A stretch of 40,084 bases of DNA from Iphinoe sp. HA4291-MV1 (GTDB lineage Bacteria > Cyanobacteriota > Cyanobacteriia > Cyanobacteriales > Nostocaceae). Under the pieces are notes generated by a model, which saw only the letters and a program-made list of their open reading frames with translations, made no database searches and was not told where the DNA came from. Location: contig JAHHHH010000071.1 in assembly GCA_019359415.1 (NCBI GenBank), positions 1 to 40,084 on the forward strand, read 5' to 3'. This document shows positions 3,661 through 9,963 of the stretch, one piece after another; the first letter of the stretch is position 1, and each line of letters begins with the position of its first letter. Position numbers and translations under genes: made by a program.

Positions 3661-4245
3661 TTATCTAACTTTATTTGGCATATAGCCAGGGGTACCAATA
3701 GCAATCGTAGAGCTAACTTGACCTTGAGTATTAACTGCTAAACTTCCAATCTCTTTGACTGCACCAAAGTCAATCAGAACAATTTTTCTATCTGTTCGGC
3801 GACGTATTAAATTTTGAGGCTTAATATCACGGTGGATGATACGTTGCTGATGGACAAATGCCAATGCTTCCAAAATTTCCTGCAACCGTTTTACGACTTC
3901 TTCTTCTCCAAAACGCTTGCCAGGAGTCAGTTCTTGACTAAAATTATGCCCATCAATAAATTCTTGAACTAAATAGAATTCTCCATTTTCTTCAAAATGG
4001 GCGAAAAGCTGTGGAATTTGACCGTGCTGACCTAATCGGTAAAAGACTTGTGCTTCCTTATCAAATAATTTTCTGGCAATGGATAAAGTGGCTGAATCAG
4101 AGCTTATCGGTTTCAGGTGTTTTACCACACACGGGGGATTGCTGGGCAAATCTCTATCTTGCGCCAAGTAAGTAACAGAAAATCCTCCGTGTCCCAATAG
4201 TCGGATAATTTTGTAGCGACCATGCCAGATTGTTCTTTCGAGCAT
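3661..4245 (-). pseudogene. Ser/Thr protein kinase, truncated after the activation segment
   Basis: 194 residues with an excellent Hanks-type N-lobe. It has a glycine loop (GHGGFSVTY), a lysine strand (CVVKHLK), a catalytic loop (HRDIKPQNL), a metal-binding DFG (IDFGAVKE) and an activation-segment end (GTPGYMP). The next residues should be a Ser/Pro-Glu-Gln and about 100 more residues of C-lobe. Instead the frame reads NKVR and stops. The downstream DNA is a nuclease gene remnant, so a deletion apparently joined the 5' half of the kinase to the 3' part of that gene. The junction carries a short tandem repeat (ATAAAGTTAG/ATAAAGTTAA). All nucleotide-binding motifs are present, but the missing helices make activity unlikely. 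Cyanobacterial relatives normally continue into a sensor or repeat domain. Confidence 0.8.
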
Positions 4246-4408: not shown

Positions 4409-5044
4409 TTACAATTTTACTCCCAACACCCCTAAAATCTCCCGAACTAGTGCTTTCTCTTGCTCTAGCCGTTGAATCTGCGTAACTTTGCGTTTGGGGA
4501 TGTACTTGGTACTTTTGGTTAGGCGATCGCCTTTAGTCCAAAACTCATACTGATAGTAAGCTTCATGGTAGTCCTTACCGTTTTTAGTAACAGTGCGCCA
4601 GTAGATACAGCCGCTTCCATCCCCCTTAGCTCGCCGTGTGTTCAGAAGCGGTTTGTAAGCGCTTATCGATTGATTTTCCAGTAACGGCAATAATGAAATA
4701 TCGTCGCATTGAAGCCAAGCAATACAAACATTACCCAACTTTTTGAATTCCTGAAATAGATTATGATTAGACCATCTACTATTGAGATTAACTGTTGAAC
4801 CAATGTAGAAAATTTGGTTGTTTTCAGCGATAGCAAAGTAGATAGCTGAGCATTTGGGTAAACTGATATCTTGCACCATTCTCAACAAGACCCAAAAAAC
4901 CGGGTTTCTGAACCAGAAATTAAGGTTTCTACGAGCAAGCATTCTCAAGAAACCCGGTTTTTAACTCAGGTGCAAGATCTGAGGTAAAGCTTTTTTCCAA
5001 GCTAACGGTAAAGACGGAAGCTTGAGTGGGTCTATAATATTCAT
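4409..5044 (-). pseudogene. GIY-YIG endonuclease-like gene split by a palindromic insertion
   Basis: The body carries a GIY-YIG domain: SAIYFAI and FYIGST form the two hallmark strands, and LNSRWSNH follows at the expected distance. After it comes a C-terminal module of about 70 residues (GDGSGCIYWRTVTKNGK onward) that is also found at the end of the 5161-6672 protein. The original N-terminus lies upstream as MNIIDPLKLPSLPLAWKKAL (ATG at 5044). It reads perfectly into LPKCSAIYF once a 120-bp element (4863-4982) flanked by a TTTACC duplication is removed. The element keeps frame but brings a TAA. Translation could restart at the ATG at 4948, inside the element, or at 4879, at its edge. Either would give a nuclease lacking only the first 20 or so native residues, so 'dead' is not certain. 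The family cuts DNA in mobile-element or repair contexts. The role here is unknown. Confidence 0.8.
4863..4982. mobile_element. 120-bp palindromic miniature element inside the GIY-YIG gene
   Basis: The outer arms are ATCTTGCACC (4868-4877) and its inverse GGTGCAAGAT (4969-4978). The inner arms are AAAAACCGGGTTTCT (4895-4909) and its perfect inverse (4948-4962). The insertion is flanked by GGTAAA at 4857-4862 and 4983-4988, a likely target duplication. Removing it restores a continuous GIY-YIG reading frame. The inner arms share the GAAACCCGGTTTCT core with the element at 24359-24448, so the two may be related. Confidence 0.75.
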
Positions 5045-5160: not shown

Positions 5161-6672
5161 TTACAGCGTTTTTCCTAGTAATTTTAAAACCTCTATAATT
5201 GGCACTTTAGCTTCTTCTAATTCCTGTATGGTTTTAATAAGTTGCTTAGGAATATAAGCGGTTTTAGAAATTACTTTTTCACCTTGATGTATTTGCCAAT
5301 CATACCAAGCTTGCTTGTACTGCTTGCCGTTCTTCTTAGTAATAGTCCGCCACTGAATTCTACCTGTCCCCTCTCCCCGGCTTCTGCGTTTAGTACTAAC
5401 GGTTGAGTGAACCATTAGTACTGTTTCTGTGTCAGGAGGGGATTCTACTGGAGTACTAACGGTTGAGCCCTCGTTGAAGGACTGCACCCAGCCGCAGAAA
5501 CCGCAACCATCAGCCAGGTTTAGCAAGGGCTGCTCACAGCTAGGACAGCAAACTTTGGAGGTAGAGGACGCGGCGAATTGCGATCGCTCCCTGGAGGGGA
5601 CAGACTGAACGGGCGTAGAGGTCGTTGCATTCTCGGCGCTTTGGTGTGTAGTGACGCATTCCGGGGTAATTGGGAGCTGAATTTGTTGCCCACCAGCCAT
5701 CAATATTTCTTCCACCCAGCCAACGGGGAATCCCATCATCCATCCTGGCACTGCTGGGTGTAACTTGTCCCCCTTGCTGATAAATTTCCTCAATGACTGC
5801 TCCAATCTGGTCGCCCCAGCTGGTCGGCATCTTGTAGAACCTTTGGCGTAAGTGGTTGGGGTAGGCAATGATGAAAAGCCTTTTTCTTTCGTGCGGCGCT
5901 CCGAGTTCCTTTGCTGATATGATTTGTGGATCGTCCCAACAATATTCGACCATTCGGAGTCCTCCAAGAACTGCTCGAAGTCCTCGGCTGATAACCCCCG
6001 CAGGATTTTCGATGATGACGAAGCTGGGGTTGCTGTCGGCGATGCATCGCAGGGCTTCAAACCAAAGGGCTGACTCTGGGTGGTTGAGTCCGGTTCGCAG
6101 TCCGGCGTTACTTGTCCCGACACAAGGAAATCCGCAGCTAATAAGGTCAAATTCTCCAGTTCTGGGGGAAAAGTCTCTAATGTCGCTGTGGATGGGGATG
6201 TCAGGGTAATGCGATCTGCTGAAAGCAGCAGCGCTTCGCTATCGCAGGACGGCTTGAGCGTCAGCGTCAAGCTCGACAAATTGCTTGGTTGTAATGTCTC
6301 CAGAGGCGATTCTGATTCCTTCCTCAAATCCGCCGATTCCTGCAAAGAGGCTAAGGTGTCTGAGGGATTGGGGCATAATTCCAGGCAATCGTTACTGAGT
6401 GTGACTGTGTGCGGCTCGTAGTTCTGAGACTCGTTGAACAAAACCGAGGTCTCTGAACCGTTGACGGCTTCGACTGTCCCCATATTGCAAAGTAGGTAAC
6501 TTTTGCGCCAAGGAAGTTCTGCGTCAATTTTTACGCGGACGCGCTCTCCAACTTTCCACATAGAAGGAAATGCGCTACCGTCCTCCCAGGCTGGATCTAC
6601 TCCGCCGTCCCAATCGCGTTTATGCTTACGCCTGGGCTTGCTGTACTGCTCAACATCAAAAAGTTGTGTCAC
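5161..6672 (-). CDS. Large accessory protein with Zn-ribbon and shared C-terminal module, overlapping a methyltransferase frame
   Basis: I favour a GTG start at 6672 (VTQLFDVEQYSK), behind an AGGGGG ribosome site, giving about 503 residues. An ATG at 6753 would add 27 residues read through a short repeat. From the new start: residues about 40-80 are a small beta-rich KOW-like segment (WKVGERVRVKIDAE, GTVEAV). A Ser/Thr/Pro-rich middle follows. Next is LPTPTTYAKGSTRCRPAG followed by WMMGFPVGW, which recalls the tail of DNA methyltransferases. Then comes a CxxC...CxxC ribbon (CPSCEQPLLN, CGFCGW). The end is a module of about 70 residues (GEGTGRIQWRTITKKNGKQY to the end) also present in the GIY-YIG gene. 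The middle is read in the +1 frame relative to a C5 methyltransferase gene. I infer a DNA-modification-associated protein. Its function is not known. Confidence 0.6.
   Translation of the reverse strand: MTQLFDVEQYSKPRRKHKRDWDGGVDPAWEDGSAFPSMWKVGERVRVKIDAELPWRKSYLLCNMGTVEAVNGSETSVLFNESQNYEPHTVTLSNDCLELCPNPSDTLASLQESADLRKESESPLETLQPSNLSSLTLTLKPSCDSEALLLSADRITLTSPSTATLETFPPELENLTLLAADFLVSGQVTPDCEPDSTTQSQPFGLKPCDASPTATPASSSSKILRGLSAEDFEQFLEDSEWSNIVGTIHKSYQQRNSERRTKEKGFSSLPTPTTYAKGSTRCRPAGATRLEQSLRKFISKGDKLHPAVPGWMMGFPVGWVEEILMAGGQQIQLPITPECVTTHQSAENATTSTPVQSVPSRERSQFAASSTSKVCCPSCEQPLLNLADGCGFCGWVQSFNEGSTVSTPVESPPDTETVLMVHSTVSTKRRSRGEGTGRIQWRTITKKNGKQYKQAWYDWQIHQGEKVISKTAYIPKQLIKTIQELEEAKVPIIEVLKLLGKTL
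5540..6376 (-). pseudogene. C5-cytosine DNA methyltransferase encoded in an overlapping frame, one internal TAG
   Basis: Reading the minus strand from ATG 6376 in the frame one base off the larger gene gives MPQSLRHLSLFAGIGGFEEG. Its LFAGIGGF is motif I of C5 methyltransferases, the AdoMet site. Further on come LISCGFPCVGTSNAG (motif IV, catalytic PC), FVIIENPAG (motif VI), GAPHERKRLFIIA (motif VIII) and ARSVCPLQGAIAIRRVLYL (motif X-like end). The frame stops at 5540, about 278 codons. A single TAG (6239-6241) interrupts it inside a 27-bp insertion at 6214-6240. Without the insertion the text reads AVLRSHYPDIPIHSDIRD, exactly as expected. The protein is therefore probably inactive today unless the stop is read through. 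Family knowledge: such enzymes methylate cytosine in DNA and often accompany mobile elements. It is nested wholly inside the 5161-6672 gene. Confidence 0.8.
6214..6240. repeat. 27-bp small dispersed repeat inserted in a HIP1 site
   Basis: Removing ATCTGCTGAAAG...GCGCTTCGCT (27 bp) joins GCG to ATCGC, recreating the HIP1 octamer GCGATCGC. The insert contains the palindromic core CTGCTGAAAGCAGCAG. Because 27 is divisible by three, both overlapping frames stay in phase. Only the methyltransferase frame gains a stop. Confidence 0.75.
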
Positions 6673-6725: not shown

Positions 6726-7376
6726 TTAACTTCTCAATAAGTTTTCCCCGCAAGGGTGATGCTCCTTCTGGGAGCCACCCAAAGGGCGATTGCCTGTATG
6801 CGCAGCGTGCGCTTTGCGCTCAGGGCAGACTTCTGGCGGCGTATCGCTTTCAGGCACGGGAGTGTCAAACCTCTCCTTGCAAGCGGCTACAAACTCCTTT
6901 TCTTCCTCAGTGAGGGGTTCACTTCCCCATCCATCAAGCGCTGCAGCATGGAGCTGCTGGGCTAGCATTTCTTCAGCGGGGGTGCGATCGCGTTGCCGCA
7001 AACTCTTTGCAGTGACAAACTCCTTGATACGCTTTTGAATTTCTAAGTGAGTTTCTGAGAATCCATTTAGAATGGTTTGTTGCCAGTCTTCACGGGAAAA
7101 TTGATCTAATTTGGCACAGGTACTAGCCGTAAAGCGCTGGTCATAATTGGGGTTGCTTCTTATTATTCCTCCAGCTGAGCACTGGGGGTTTTGACAAACC
7201 ACGGATTTATCGCGGTGGTGGTCATAATCTGGAATGACTAACCGAATCAGGTGAAGCTGGACTTTTCCTGTATCTTGGCAGCAGAAGCACTTCCACGTTG
7301 GTTGCCAAACTTCTTCTGCCTCTGGTTTTTCCCGTTCTGGGCGAATGGGTTCGCGGGGTAATTGCGGGAAATTCAT
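6726..7376 (-). CDS. Cys-rich accessory protein of unknown function
   Basis: About 216 residues from the ATG at 7376, which overlaps the stop of the upstream gene (ATGA overlap). Translational coupling is therefore likely. A GTG two codons upstream is also possible. The N-terminal third has CFCCQDTGKV and, about 30 residues later, CQNPQC. This resembles a zinc-binding ribbon or DnaJ-like Cys cluster. The middle is charged and helical (EIQKRIKEFV, EKEFVAACKERF). The last 30 or so residues (CPERKAHAAHTGNRPLGG) are read through a GC-rich dispersed repeat at 6770-6830, so the native C-terminus may have been replaced. I recognise the arrangement with winged-helix-type proteins from cyanobacterial plasmid-like or phage-like islands, but no precise family. 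A helper in replication or DNA handling is only a guess. Confidence 0.7.
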   Translation of the reverse strand: MNFPQLPREPIRPEREKPEAEEVWQPTWKCFCCQDTGKVQLHLIRLVIPDYDHHRDKSVVCQNPQCSAGGIIRSNPNYDQRFTASTCAKLDQFSREDWQQTILNGFSETHLEIQKRIKEFVTAKSLRQRDRTPAEEMLAQQLHAAALDGWGSEPLTEEEKEFVAACKERFDTPVPESDTPPEVCPERKAHAAHTGNRPLGGSQKEHHPCGENLLRS

Positions 7377-8344
7377 AAGCACACTCCTTCAAAAGCATTG
7401 ACTGCAAATGCCCAGTCATAGAACAAATTACGTTCTTCACGTTCGGCTTCGTTCTCGTGTACCCACTCATAACCGCGTTCAAAAGCTTCCCAGATCCATT
7501 CATTGAAACGAGGGTCTTTGTGCCAATCGTGTCCAGTTGCGCCTTTCTTCTTTACTTGGCGACCTGCAGAGGATTTTAAAAATTTCTGCCACCAATTGTC
7601 CAGGTCTTCGGGTTTACTAAGGAACCTTTCTAAACTGATAATTTCCTTCCCTGGCTCTCCGTTCTTGGCGGTTATCTTTCTCCATTCGTCCCTGACAAAT
7701 TTTTCAAAATTCTCTCTCTCCGCTTTTGAGAGTTCTGAGAGAGATTTGAAAAGGTTTGAATAGATTTGATTGTTTTGAGGAGCGCTGGAATCTGGATTTG
7801 GTAGGGGTTCTGGGCTTTGTGGAGAGCTTAAATAAGCGCTATCGGGGCTTAAATAAGCGCTATCGGGGCTTAAATAAGCGCTATCGGGGCTTAAATAAGC
7901 GCTATCGGAGCTTAAATAAGCGGAAGCTTTATCAGTACTAGGTTTGGGGCTGTTTTTTGGTGATTTGGACTTTGATAAATGTTCTGCCTCAGCTTTGGCT
8001 CTAGCAGCTGTCAGGTTATGCCCCTGCAATGTTACAGTTCGATATTCGTAAAGCCCTAGCTTGCGAAGTTTTCTTAAATCCTTTTCGACTGTGTCTGGCG
8101 AACTTCCTACAGCCACAGCTATTTCAGCAATTGTTGGTAAATCATGATATTTCACTTCGCCGCCTGGAGTGTAGTCTGCAAACGGGTCAACAAGCATCAG
8201 GTAAAGCCAAAGACGACACTGGCTACCAGTTAACTTATTGGTAATAACTACAGCAGCGTCTTGCTTAGAAATCATGAAATACCCTTGCACTTTTGATTCC
8301 TCAAATTCTTGTGGACGGCGGATGCTGCGTATTTTAGTTGTCAT
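7373..8344 (-). CDS. Winged-helix-like accessory protein with SAYLSPD heptapeptide repeats
   Basis: I choose the ATG at 8344 (MTTKIRSIRRPQEF) behind GGGGAGGTG. The longer frame to 8401 is read through the end of the IscB element. About 323 residues. Residues about 20-110 (FMISKQDAAVVITNKL, TIAEIAVAVGSSPDTVEKDL, RKLGLYEYR) look like a winged helix-turn-helix of the type seen in plasmid and phage replication proteins of cyanobacteria. Then come a charged linker, five copies of a heptapeptide (SAYLS(P/S)D), and a helical C-terminal domain rich in Trp/Glu (DNWWQKFLKSS, FNEWIWEAFERGYEW). It is translationally coupled to the Cys-rich gene. The IscB element sits directly upstream and has probably replaced the original promoter region. 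A DNA-binding role is inferred from the N-terminal domain. Confidence 0.75.
   Translation of the reverse strand: MTTKIRSIRRPQEFEESKVQGYFMISKQDAAVVITNKLTGSQCRLWLYLMLVDPFADYTPGGEVKYHDLPTIAEIAVAVGSSPDTVEKDLRKLRKLGLYEYRTVTLQGHNLTAARAKAEAEHLSKSKSPKNSPKPSTDKASAYLSSDSAYLSPDSAYLSPDSAYLSPDSAYLSSPQSPEPLPNPDSSAPQNNQIYSNLFKSLSELSKAERENFEKFVRDEWRKITAKNGEPGKEIISLERFLSKPEDLDNWWQKFLKSSAGRQVKKKGATGHDWHKDPRFNEWIWEAFERGYEWVHENEAEREERNLFYDWAFAVNAFEGVCL
7826..7922. repeat. 21-bp direct repeats, about 4.6 copies, in coding sequence
   Basis: Units of GCTTAAATAAGCGCTATCGG plus one base start at 7826, 7847, 7868, 7889 and 7910. Each contains a GCTTAAATAAGC palindrome and, on the other strand, encodes one heptapeptide. 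Near-identity at the DNA level suggests either recent expansion or selection on the DNA itself, as in replication iterons. Confidence 0.85.
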
Positions 8345-8451
8345 AACTACCGCACCTCCCCAGAAGTCACCGCACACCTCGCGCCGTGGAAGCCCCTGCA
8401 TTCATGCATGGGGGTAAGGCGCGGGCGATTTTAATCGCCGTCAGAATTGTT

Positions 8452-9963
8452 TCAAAATGCATAACTGTACCCATCTTTTTTATGAATTGGCGAACAATAT
8501 TTATAGCTAATACCTGCTACTCTTCCCGATGATGTAGCGATATCAAAACTACCTGTGGCACGACACAAAACACGCCCTAAATATTCGCCGACTTTTTTAC
8601 CATTAGCGACCATAGCTTTAACAATATCTCCAGTGCTAAATCCGTAATGAATCTGTTTATTTGAACGATGACGAGTAGGAAAACCGAATTTATTAATACC
8701 AGCCATCTGTCTAGTACCATGACCATTTGCAGTTATCAACAAAGGCTTAATACCTTTGATATTAAGAATCGGTGTTGACGTACCAACACAAGCTGCATCA
8801 AGCCAATGAGTTTTCTCTAGATTCTGTTGGCTACGATTAAACTTTGTTAATCCACCAGAACCAGTTTCTACTGGTAATCCAGTTGCTTTTAGAATTCTCA
8901 AAAGTGCAAATCTAGTCGTGTTTACTGCTGCTGCATCTGCCAATGGTTTTTTAGCTTGTTTCAAGATTATTTCCAACTTTGAAGGGGCTTTTTTGAGAAA
9001 ATCTTTAATATCTTTAGTACCTTTCTTTGTGTTGCATTTTTCGCAACTTAGTGTGAGATTTGTAATTGAGTTAGAGCCTCCTTTCGCTCTTGGATGGATG
9101 TGTTCTATCTGGAATGGGACATCTTTAACACCACAGTAGGCGCATTGTCTACCCCATTTTTCTAATAGATATTCTCTTGTTTCGTAACCAGCCAAGGTTC
9201 CTTGTTGATATTCCTTGCCTTGAATATCAGAATTACGCATCAACTGCATATCAAAGCGTACTAATTCCTGACTAATAGCTTTGATTGGCGCAAATTTACA
9301 CAACTTCTCAACCCAAGTTTTGATATTCTCAATCCTGCTTTGCAAACTTGGTGCTAACGAGGTCTTACACGTTGGCGTAGCCTCTCCGACAGGAGAAGAA
9401 AATGGGGCAGCACCGAAGTTGCCACAACGCGGGGAACCCGCGCAAGGCACTTCTCGCTTACTAGAACGAGTAACCGACTCCGTCCCTTGCGCGTCTCCGT
9501 TGGCGTAGCCTCTCCGGCAGGAGAAGGAGACTGACGAATTAACAAAAACAAAGCCTGCCCCATTTTCTAGGGGACAAATGCGTAACCATCCCTCTGGACG
9601 GGTTCTATTCAAAAATCTCGGTTGCCTGTAACGAGTTTTTCTAGCACGTCTACTCCGTCTTAATTGTCTTCTAGAAGTTAAAGCATTTCTGATTGCAAAA
9701 CCTCTATGCTTTAACTCAGCAGCAAATACAACCTCGCCAGTTGAATCGTTAACTAGTGCGATTCCTGTATGTTTTGCGCCAGGATCAATCTTTAATCTGA
9801 GTGCTGATACAGGAGAGTCCTGACGAGCTTCTTTAAGAATTAAAGTGAATGGAAAACGTCGATAAACTGCTGCTTTTTTGTTTCTTAATAATTGCCTAGC
9901 CTGTGCGCTATGTATTGGGTCTAATGGTCTTTTTTCTGAATCTAAAACAAATACTTTGGACAT
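8452..9963 (-). CDS. iscB: IscB RNA-guided nuclease with an in-frame repeat insertion
   Basis: 503 residues with the full IscB layout. There is an N-terminal PLMP-type domain (residues 1-50), RuvC-I with Asp60 (LRLKIDPG), an Arg-rich bridge helix (100-117, RRQLRRSRRARK), RuvC-II with Glu233 (ISQELVRFD) and an HNH domain. The HNH has CxxC at 274/277, the His-containing IEHIHP at 286-291 and CEKC at 307-310. RuvC-III (HWLDAAC, Asp389) and a target-adjacent-motif-interacting tail (GFSTGDIVKAMV, ATGSFDIAT) follow. All catalytic residues I can identify are present. IscB uses an omega-RNA encoded upstream to cut DNA. The oddity is residues about 128-203: a Ser/Arg/Cys-rich stretch encoded by nested palindromic repeats. 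Without it GWL would join APSLQSRIENI, the usual sequence. ATG 9963 follows a GGAGGGA ribosome site. Activity with this insertion is uncertain. Confidence 0.9.
   Translation of the reverse strand: MSKVFVLDSEKRPLDPIHSAQARQLLRNKKAAVYRRFPFTLILKEARQDSPVSALRLKIDPGAKHTGIALVNDSTGEVVFAAELKHRGFAIRNALTSRRQLRRSRRARKTRYRQPRFLNRTRPEGWLRICPLENGAGFVFVNSSVSFSCRRGYANGDAQGTESVTRSSKREVPCAGSPRCGNFGAAPFSSPVGEATPTCKTSLAPSLQSRIENIKTWVEKLCKFAPIKAISQELVRFDMQLMRNSDIQGKEYQQGTLAGYETREYLLEKWGRQCAYCGVKDVPFQIEHIHPRAKGGSNSITNLTLSCEKCNTKKGTKDIKDFLKKAPSKLEIILKQAKKPLADAAAVNTTRFALLRILKATGLPVETGSGGLTKFNRSQQNLEKTHWLDAACVGTSTPILNIKGIKPLLITANGHGTRQMAGINKFGFPTRHRSNKQIHYGFSTGDIVKAMVANGKKVGEYLGRVLCRATGSFDIATSSGRVAGISYKYCSPIHKKDGYSYAF
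9355..9582. repeat. Nested dispersed-repeat insertion (about 228 bp) inside iscB
   Basis: The segment interrupts the conserved IscB sequence between the bridge helix and RuvC-II without shifting the frame. It contains two direct copies of CGTTGGCGTAGCCTCTCCG followed by RCAGGAGAAG (9370-9398, 9498-9526). It also has inverted arms GAAAATGGGGCAG (9398-9410) and CTGCCCCATTTTC (9555-9567), and a GC hairpin CGCGGGGAACCCGCG near 9427-9441. The GGCGTAGCCTCTCC motif is a well-known Nostocales dispersed repeat. Confidence 0.85.

Follow-up and report, generated by a model that had tools for sequence, protein, structure and literature searches.

The 40,084-nucleotide stretch of Iphinoe sp. HA4291-MV1 analysed here (contig JAHHHH010000071.1, hereafter the window) was found to carry on its minus strand, at positions 5161-6672, two overlapping reading frames one base apart. 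The larger, frame A, is open throughout, from a GTG at 6672 to a TAA at 5163-5161, as an earlier note on this DNA had claimed; the smaller, frame B, contains motifs of a 5-methylcytosine (m5C) methyltransferase, and frame A is the +1 frame relative to it. Judged from comparison with related loci, the overprint is real and does not join two unrelated proteins. Frame A holds the motif-IX and recognition piece that is missing from frame B, and thus each resembles one half of a single enzyme. We consider it likely that an m5C methyltransferase of two polypeptides, similar in kind to M.EcoHK31I, is encoded here with its parts in overlapping frames, in a variant where frame A (beta) has grown at both ends and engulfs frame B (alpha).

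Partition of methyltransferase motifs between the frames

The features of the pair, given in nucleotides (nt), amino acids (aa) and open reading frames (ORFs), are the following.

5161..6672 (-): frame A ORF (beta), 503 aa, GTG at 6672, open across the whole overlap
6380..6672 (-): frame A N-terminal module, 5' of the alpha start, compared below by its identity to relatives
5540..6376 (-): frame B, m5C-methyltransferase alpha with motifs I, IV, VI, VIII and a motif similar to X; a TAG interrupts it in this genome
6329..6349 (-): alpha motif I, LFAGIGG
6211..6243 (-): 33-nt repeat inside alpha, source of the TAG (6241-6239), with no stop in frame A
6122..6133 (-): alpha motif IV, GFPC, bearing the catalytic Cys
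5996..6010 (-): alpha motif VI, ENPAG
5879..5899 (-): alpha motif VIII, APHERKR
5839..5868 (-): beta LPTPTTYAKG, start of the recognition-like stretch
5716..5742 (-): beta motif-IX-like WMMGFPVGW, placed by a weak hhalign match on the motif IX that one-frame methyltransferases have
5594..5614 (-): alpha motif X-like, ARSVCPL
5488..5547 (-): beta stretch with CxxC...CxxC where alpha stops, resembling a zinc ribbon by eye
5164..5400 (-): beta C-terminal domain, common to the adjoining GIY-YIG ORF and other plasmid proteins

The five methyltransferase motifs quoted in the earlier note were all located in frame B, and the tail-like stretch it had seen in the larger frame consists of LPTPTTYAKG (5868-5839) and WMMGFPVGW (5742-5716). 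It had read 5540-6376 as one open frame, overlooking the TAG at 6241-6239. The ORF list stretches the start of frame A back to a TTG at 6753, and inspection by eye showed no strong ribosome site at the alpha ATG (6376).

With the stop read through, frame B was matched by Pfam DNA_methylase at 8.8e-27. Motifs I, IV (PC), VI (EN) and VIII follow one another in the order of an m5C catalytic domain, and the large domain has a HhaI-like fold, the profile match to M.HhaI stopping just past motif VIII. No motif IX and no confident recognition domain were found within alpha of this group; LPTPT and WMMGFPVGW of frame A occupy the place that the recognition domain and motif IX have in a one-frame enzyme. 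Frame A itself matched no Pfam or NCBIfam family above cut-off. The PHROG profile phrog_1008 matched it (1.3e-7), together with frame A of all five other loci tested, and corresponds to frame A; its label, 'DNA methyltransferase', is that of a family and gives no function for this frame.

Both frames were found in the same register in plasmids of Scytonema, Nostoc, Dolichospermum, Anabaena PCC 7122 and Synechocystis PCC 6714, in two further Nostoc/Trichormus plasmids, and in Nodularia phage kac65v151, Synechococcus phage S-H1, Salmonella phage S9-5 and Bacteroides phage BKO1-TP3. In the four phages and the two Nostoc/Trichormus plasmids, a single frame contains motifs I-VIII together with X or a degenerate form of it, and the +1 frame contains a stretch resembling LPTPT. 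After this stretch five of the six have a motif similar to EWMMGFPxGW; the Nodularia phage has only EWIMGT. Motif X reads GNAVVP, GNGQVP or GNAIVP in three phage relatives. Among the records examined it is mostly frame B that is annotated, frame A being annotated in Anabaena PCC 7122 and Synechocystis pSYLB. The LPTP segments are repeated in the beta frames of two loci (L022 and L023), as if the recognition stretch had been duplicated.

Scans of viral contigs gave 152 loci (20, 80, 0 and 52 over four scans), the scan with the Trichormus alpha finding no relative. Over the 171 viral, plasmid and phage loci, profile search found an alpha ORF in 166; the other five are L001-L004, which are the window genome's own matches and were not scanned, and phiCbK (L015), which has no alpha and was dropped. 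Motif VIII could be placed in 162 loci, and motif IX lies in the +1 frame in 126 of these by a strict pattern and in 140 by a loose one, against none and one in the +2 frame and two and seven in the alpha frame. The two strict cases in the alpha frame, the viral genes L163 and L167, are the only instances found by that pattern of the joined single frame which the earlier note had named as refuting its reading. In L163 motifs I-VIII continue in frame into LPTPT and motif IX, and motif X is left in another frame, so that a natural joined form exists.

Selection on both frames

Stop codons were counted in 148 loci with all marks (112 non-redundant), and the expectation was obtained by shuffling synonymous codons within each alpha. 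In the 112 loci the +1 frame contained 162 stops against 166 expected between motifs I and IV, 31 against 149 between IV and VI, 2 against 163 between VI and VIII, 6 against 189 from VIII to the DG mark and 124 against 102 from DG to X. This profile indicates that beta opens around motif IV and closes before motif X, and the main outcome that the earlier note had named as refuting, homologs with one frame kept and stops scattered through the other, did not occur. In the +2 frame, the counts over the same segments were 526/471, 221/243, 285/284, 752/853 and 228/237 (seen/expected).

Thirty one-frame loci, the best full-length Pfam methyltransferase matches taken one per genome from 30 of 60 genomes searched, served as a control. 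The loose motif IX was in frame 0 in 29 of them and in the +1 frame in five, and motif X was in frame 0 in 28. Their +1 stops (105/91, 47/56, 113/110 and 273/255) showed no depletion comparable to that of the two-frame loci; the +2 values were 209/239, 130/125, 128/128 and 425/506. A conserved beta start codon near motif IV was considered and no single start is claimed, the +1 ATG counts being in modest excess of the synonymous expectation in some places (36 vs 25.3, 27 vs 19.6, 12 vs 6.0) and below it in others (15 vs 25.2, 3 vs 13.4).

Codon-position ratios were worked out from substitution rates in a wide set of 155 pairs from 124 loci. Third positions of alpha changed 2.7 times as much as first positions in I-IV and 1.5 times as much in VI-VIII, and slightly less than first positions between VIII and DG. 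In the window clade, represented by seven disjoint pairs that do not contain the window, third- and first-position substitutions of alpha numbered 139 and 54 in I-IV, 100 and 34 in IV-VI, 44 and 42 in VI-VIII, and 91 and 133 in VIII-X. Outside alpha, frame-A positions 1, 2 and 3 had 204, 159 and 225 substitutions upstream and 402, 335 and 693 downstream. When the window was compared with its closest plasmid relatives, L005 and L006 (Scytonema HK-05 and NIES-4073), identity in I-IV was 0.75 and 0.78 for frame A and 0.88 and 0.91 for frame B, and in VIII-X 0.89 and 0.94 for frame A and 0.77 and 0.80 for frame B. The reversed rates and identities indicate that in the window clade selection shifts from alpha to beta along the gene. 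Both frames are thus under selection, and to this extent the overprinting suggested in the earlier note stands; its larger frame is not an unrelated gene, and the methyltransferase frame is interrupted in the window.

The engulfing form and the interrupted alpha

A profile of the frame-A core found 56 places in 45 of 388 genomes of the order; phrog_1008, which found two of 194 genomes, was too insensitive for the cyanobacterial form. Thirty of the 56 places were fetched and each has an alpha match, which is interrupted in two of them (the window and L186) and incomplete in a few others; in four of the thirty (L181-L184) there is one stop within the matched stretch. These thirty and 20 loci from genome contigs, with duplicates between the two sources kept and with the ORF start taken as reference for the distance to motif I where motif positions were unset, made up 50 cyanobacterial loci. 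Frame A extends past the alpha stop in 37 of them, the window included, and ends inside alpha in 12; L186, with its broken alpha, could not be placed. In the non-redundant viral set of 100 loci, there are 94 whose +1 ORF ends inside alpha, and in 76 of these it also begins after motif I; the six that run past alpha all came from the scan with the cyanobacterial alpha alignment.

Fifteen close relatives were selected by at least 55% alpha identity to L005, the window being excluded and near-duplicates removed by word overlap, with L005 and L202 both retained; L173 came from the frame-A search and the others from alpha or DNA searches. Frame A is open in all fifteen over I-IV (3.9 expected), IV-VIII (1.8) and VIII-X (4.7). 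In 31 more distant relatives, after two others had been dropped because motif IV was unmatched, frame-A stops seen and expected were 36 and 39 in I-IV, 4 and 65 in IV-VIII, and 0 and 33 in VIII-X; 19 of these loci are open over I-IV against 10.0 expected, so that the distant group is mixed. A frame A that is open through all of alpha hence marks the window clade and some others.

The N-terminal module of frame A is 77% identical to L005, 80% to L006 and only 22% to L007, and in comparison with the first two it changes fastest at frame-A third positions. Frame A of L010 has an additional module matching phrog_3193. A separate insert of about 10 codons was observed in the N-terminal part of frame A in L006, and the GIY-YIG ORF at window positions 4409-4948 has a C-terminal domain similar to the one in frame A, at 41% over about 79 aa.

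The TAG that interrupts alpha in the window sits in a 27-nt insert (nine codons relative to L005 and L006, where the insert is absent), which is part of the 33-nt repeat; frame A is open through it. The plasmids of Scytonema HK-05 and NIES-4073 are 86.4% and 84.7% identical to the query DNA over 69% of it. The repeat occurs in three exact copies in the window genome, this one and two more. The next in-frame ATG, GTG or TTG lies only at 5953, past motifs IV and VI. As the repeat interrupts alpha, this copy is probably without activity, although its frame A persists. A further alpha/beta pair, of the short type and with an uninterrupted alpha, was found in the same genome on contig C79 at about 42193-42741 (L003). 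The translated alpha of L186 shows a similar-looking repeat, again with a TAG in alpha and with frame A open.

Proposed organization and its alternatives

In the organization that we propose, alpha would provide the catalytic domain and cofactor binding (motifs I-VIII and the helix of motif X), and beta the recognition stretch and motif IX; beta would be translated separately, not by frameshifting, and would join alpha to form the enzyme. Translation of both frames, assembly, methylation and the need for both polypeptides are what we infer from the sequences. Beta ends inside alpha in most viral relatives and some cyanobacteria, and in the window clade its frame has gained N- and C-terminal modules and runs through all of alpha. 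The history probably began with an ancestral enzyme in one frame, for which an internal start in the +1 frame took over production of the recognition part, beta growing later at both ends in cyanobacterial plasmids. More tentatively, the recognition subunit may have overgrown its catalytic partner in this plasmid clade: a single long polypeptide would be translated across the entire catalytic gene in the other frame, with the fused modules giving beta a function that outlives catalysis, as in the window, whose repeat cuts the catalytic frame and spares the recognition frame.

Several observations weigh against this organization. A PDB profile search with the beta core returned no methyltransferase and only chance-level matches, hhalign matched it only weakly to enzymes with one frame (probability 8.1, E 0.0042), though at motif IX, and when predicted alone the core had no confident fold, with a per-residue confidence (pLDDT) of 56.8 and a predicted template-modelling score (pTM) of 0.24, too weak a model for a fold search. 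Twenty-two of the 162 loci lack even the loose motif IX pattern in the +1 frame, and frame A of L181 stops before the motif. Motif X is degenerate in the window's clade (ARSVCPL, GRAVTP; no GN). Over motifs I to VI frame A is kept open with no amino-acid constraint of its own, and in the wide set mean identity between VIII and DG was 0.575 for frame A and 0.603 for alpha, frame A being higher in 63 of the 155 pairs. The +2 stops also fall below expectation between VIII and DG, in the controls as well, so that the shuffle model is not perfect there; the shortfall is small relative to the +1 depletion. Last, alpha is broken in the window and L186 while frame A is open, and beta may therefore have a life of its own.

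This last point bears on the alternative that fares best, which we nevertheless regard as unlikely: frame A would be a real but independent protein, for example a DNA-binding or regulatory protein of the plasmid, not needed for methylation and with a shallow likeness to motif IX. It gains N- and C-terminal modules, the one in L010 matching phrog_3193, it stays open in the two loci with a broken alpha, and in the phages MM1 and P0091 an inner +1 frame without motif IX accompanies an alpha with IX and X in one frame. Against an independent protein, alpha of the present group lacks IX and a confident recognition domain, the presence of IX in the +1 frame and its absence from alpha co-occur, and M.EcoHK31I is a precedent with the same partition.

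Still less probable is a ribosomal frameshift, by which alpha would be read through motif VIII and a +1 shift into frame A would give one fused enzyme. L163 and L167, with strict motif IX in the alpha frame, and the joined form of L163 agree with it. For a shift at motif VIII the +1 frame need not be open further upstream, yet the depletion of stops already begins at motif IV, and on this ground the reading is disfavoured; moreover motif X remains in the alpha frame, and the window clade conserves frame A upstream of the alpha start. That frame A is a mere open frame appears very improbable: codon bias can keep alternative frames open and conserved motifs cast conserved shadows, but neither the synonymous shuffles, nor the +2 frame, nor the 30 one-frame enzymes show so large a depletion, and in VIII-X the rates at the codon positions are reversed. 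That the two frames are remnants of a methyltransferase decaying after a frameshift, to which the TAG in the window alpha might point, is scarcely credible, since plasmid and phage relatives keep both frames at the same offset and under selection.

The two-polypeptide organization has parallels. In M.EcoHK31I, an m5C methyltransferase of two polypeptides for YGGCCR, the smaller ORF is reported to lie inside the larger in another frame (Lee, Kam and Shaw 1995); unlike that nesting, frame A of the window is not inside alpha and passes it at both ends with extra modules. PMC3404938 places motifs I-VIII, X and a predicted recognition domain of M.EcoHK31I in the larger polypeptide and only motif IX in the smaller. 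Here, similarly, motif IX is in a different frame from I-VIII, with weak profile support, and motif X is in the same frame as I-VIII, though degenerate in the window clade; the recognition domain predicted in the larger subunit of M.EcoHK31I differs from the window clade, where VIII-X is constrained more in the beta frame. The comparison is one of the described motif split. The same paper (PMC3404938) describes M.AquI as two polypeptides with I-VIII in the larger and IX and X together in the small subunit; for M.SssI it reports the best complementation from C-terminal fragments whose start falls between VIII and the recognition domain. The present loci share with M.AquI the two polypeptides and I-VIII in the larger, but have their X-like motif in the alpha frame. 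An AquI-like layout was found in Mycobacterium phage Toaka gp83/gp82, with IX and X in the second frame and a 101-nt overlap.

Total overlap of two m5C methyltransferase frames is described for 5093-group streptococcal phages in PMC5601072, which also cites overlaps of this sort from a pneumococcal phage and from a conjugative transposon (Tn5252 by the reference list). As in the streptococcal nested frames (MM1, P0091), two methyltransferase frames lie here on the same DNA. In MM1 and P0091 the inner frame is in +1 and lacks IX, and the outer frame carries IX as well as X, as one-frame enzymes do; they are therefore a neighbouring kind, whereas in the present loci motif IX is in the +1 frame. 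The inner +1 frames of the streptococcal phage loci L260 and L261 overlap motifs IV-VIII and end in a different tail without IX, so that a +1 frame also exists under enzymes that keep IX and X together. Dual coding of this kind is thus already published for a few bacterial m5C methyltransferases, and the window locus is an extended form of it. No description of the engulfing layout in cyanobacteria was found among the matches listed from the open-licence PubMed Central literature, which is weak evidence of absence.

Few long overlapping prokaryotic genes are fully established according to the abstract of PMC9927249. At the present loci, two structural domains of one enzyme appear to be superimposed on the same DNA of phages and plasmids. 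Annotation of these usually records a single frame, and for many m5C methyltransferases of phages it may thus cover half of the enzyme. The overprinting would be directly testable, as a mutation silent in one frame alters the other, and the pairs may offer naturally occurring counterparts of the split enzymes employed in targeted methylation.

Around the pair, the gene two upstream (window 7373-8401) has a 144-residue C-terminal part that is 76% identical to its counterpart on Scytonema NIES-4073 plasmid 4, where the neighbourhood is thus partly conserved; the Synechocystis counterpart shows only faint likeness. The ORF at 3661-4245 is a short protein kinase that reaches only position 166 of the kinase domain model (1-166 of 263) and is perhaps truncated. 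The ORF at 8452-9963 has RRXRR and HNH domains, and we take it to be IscB-like.
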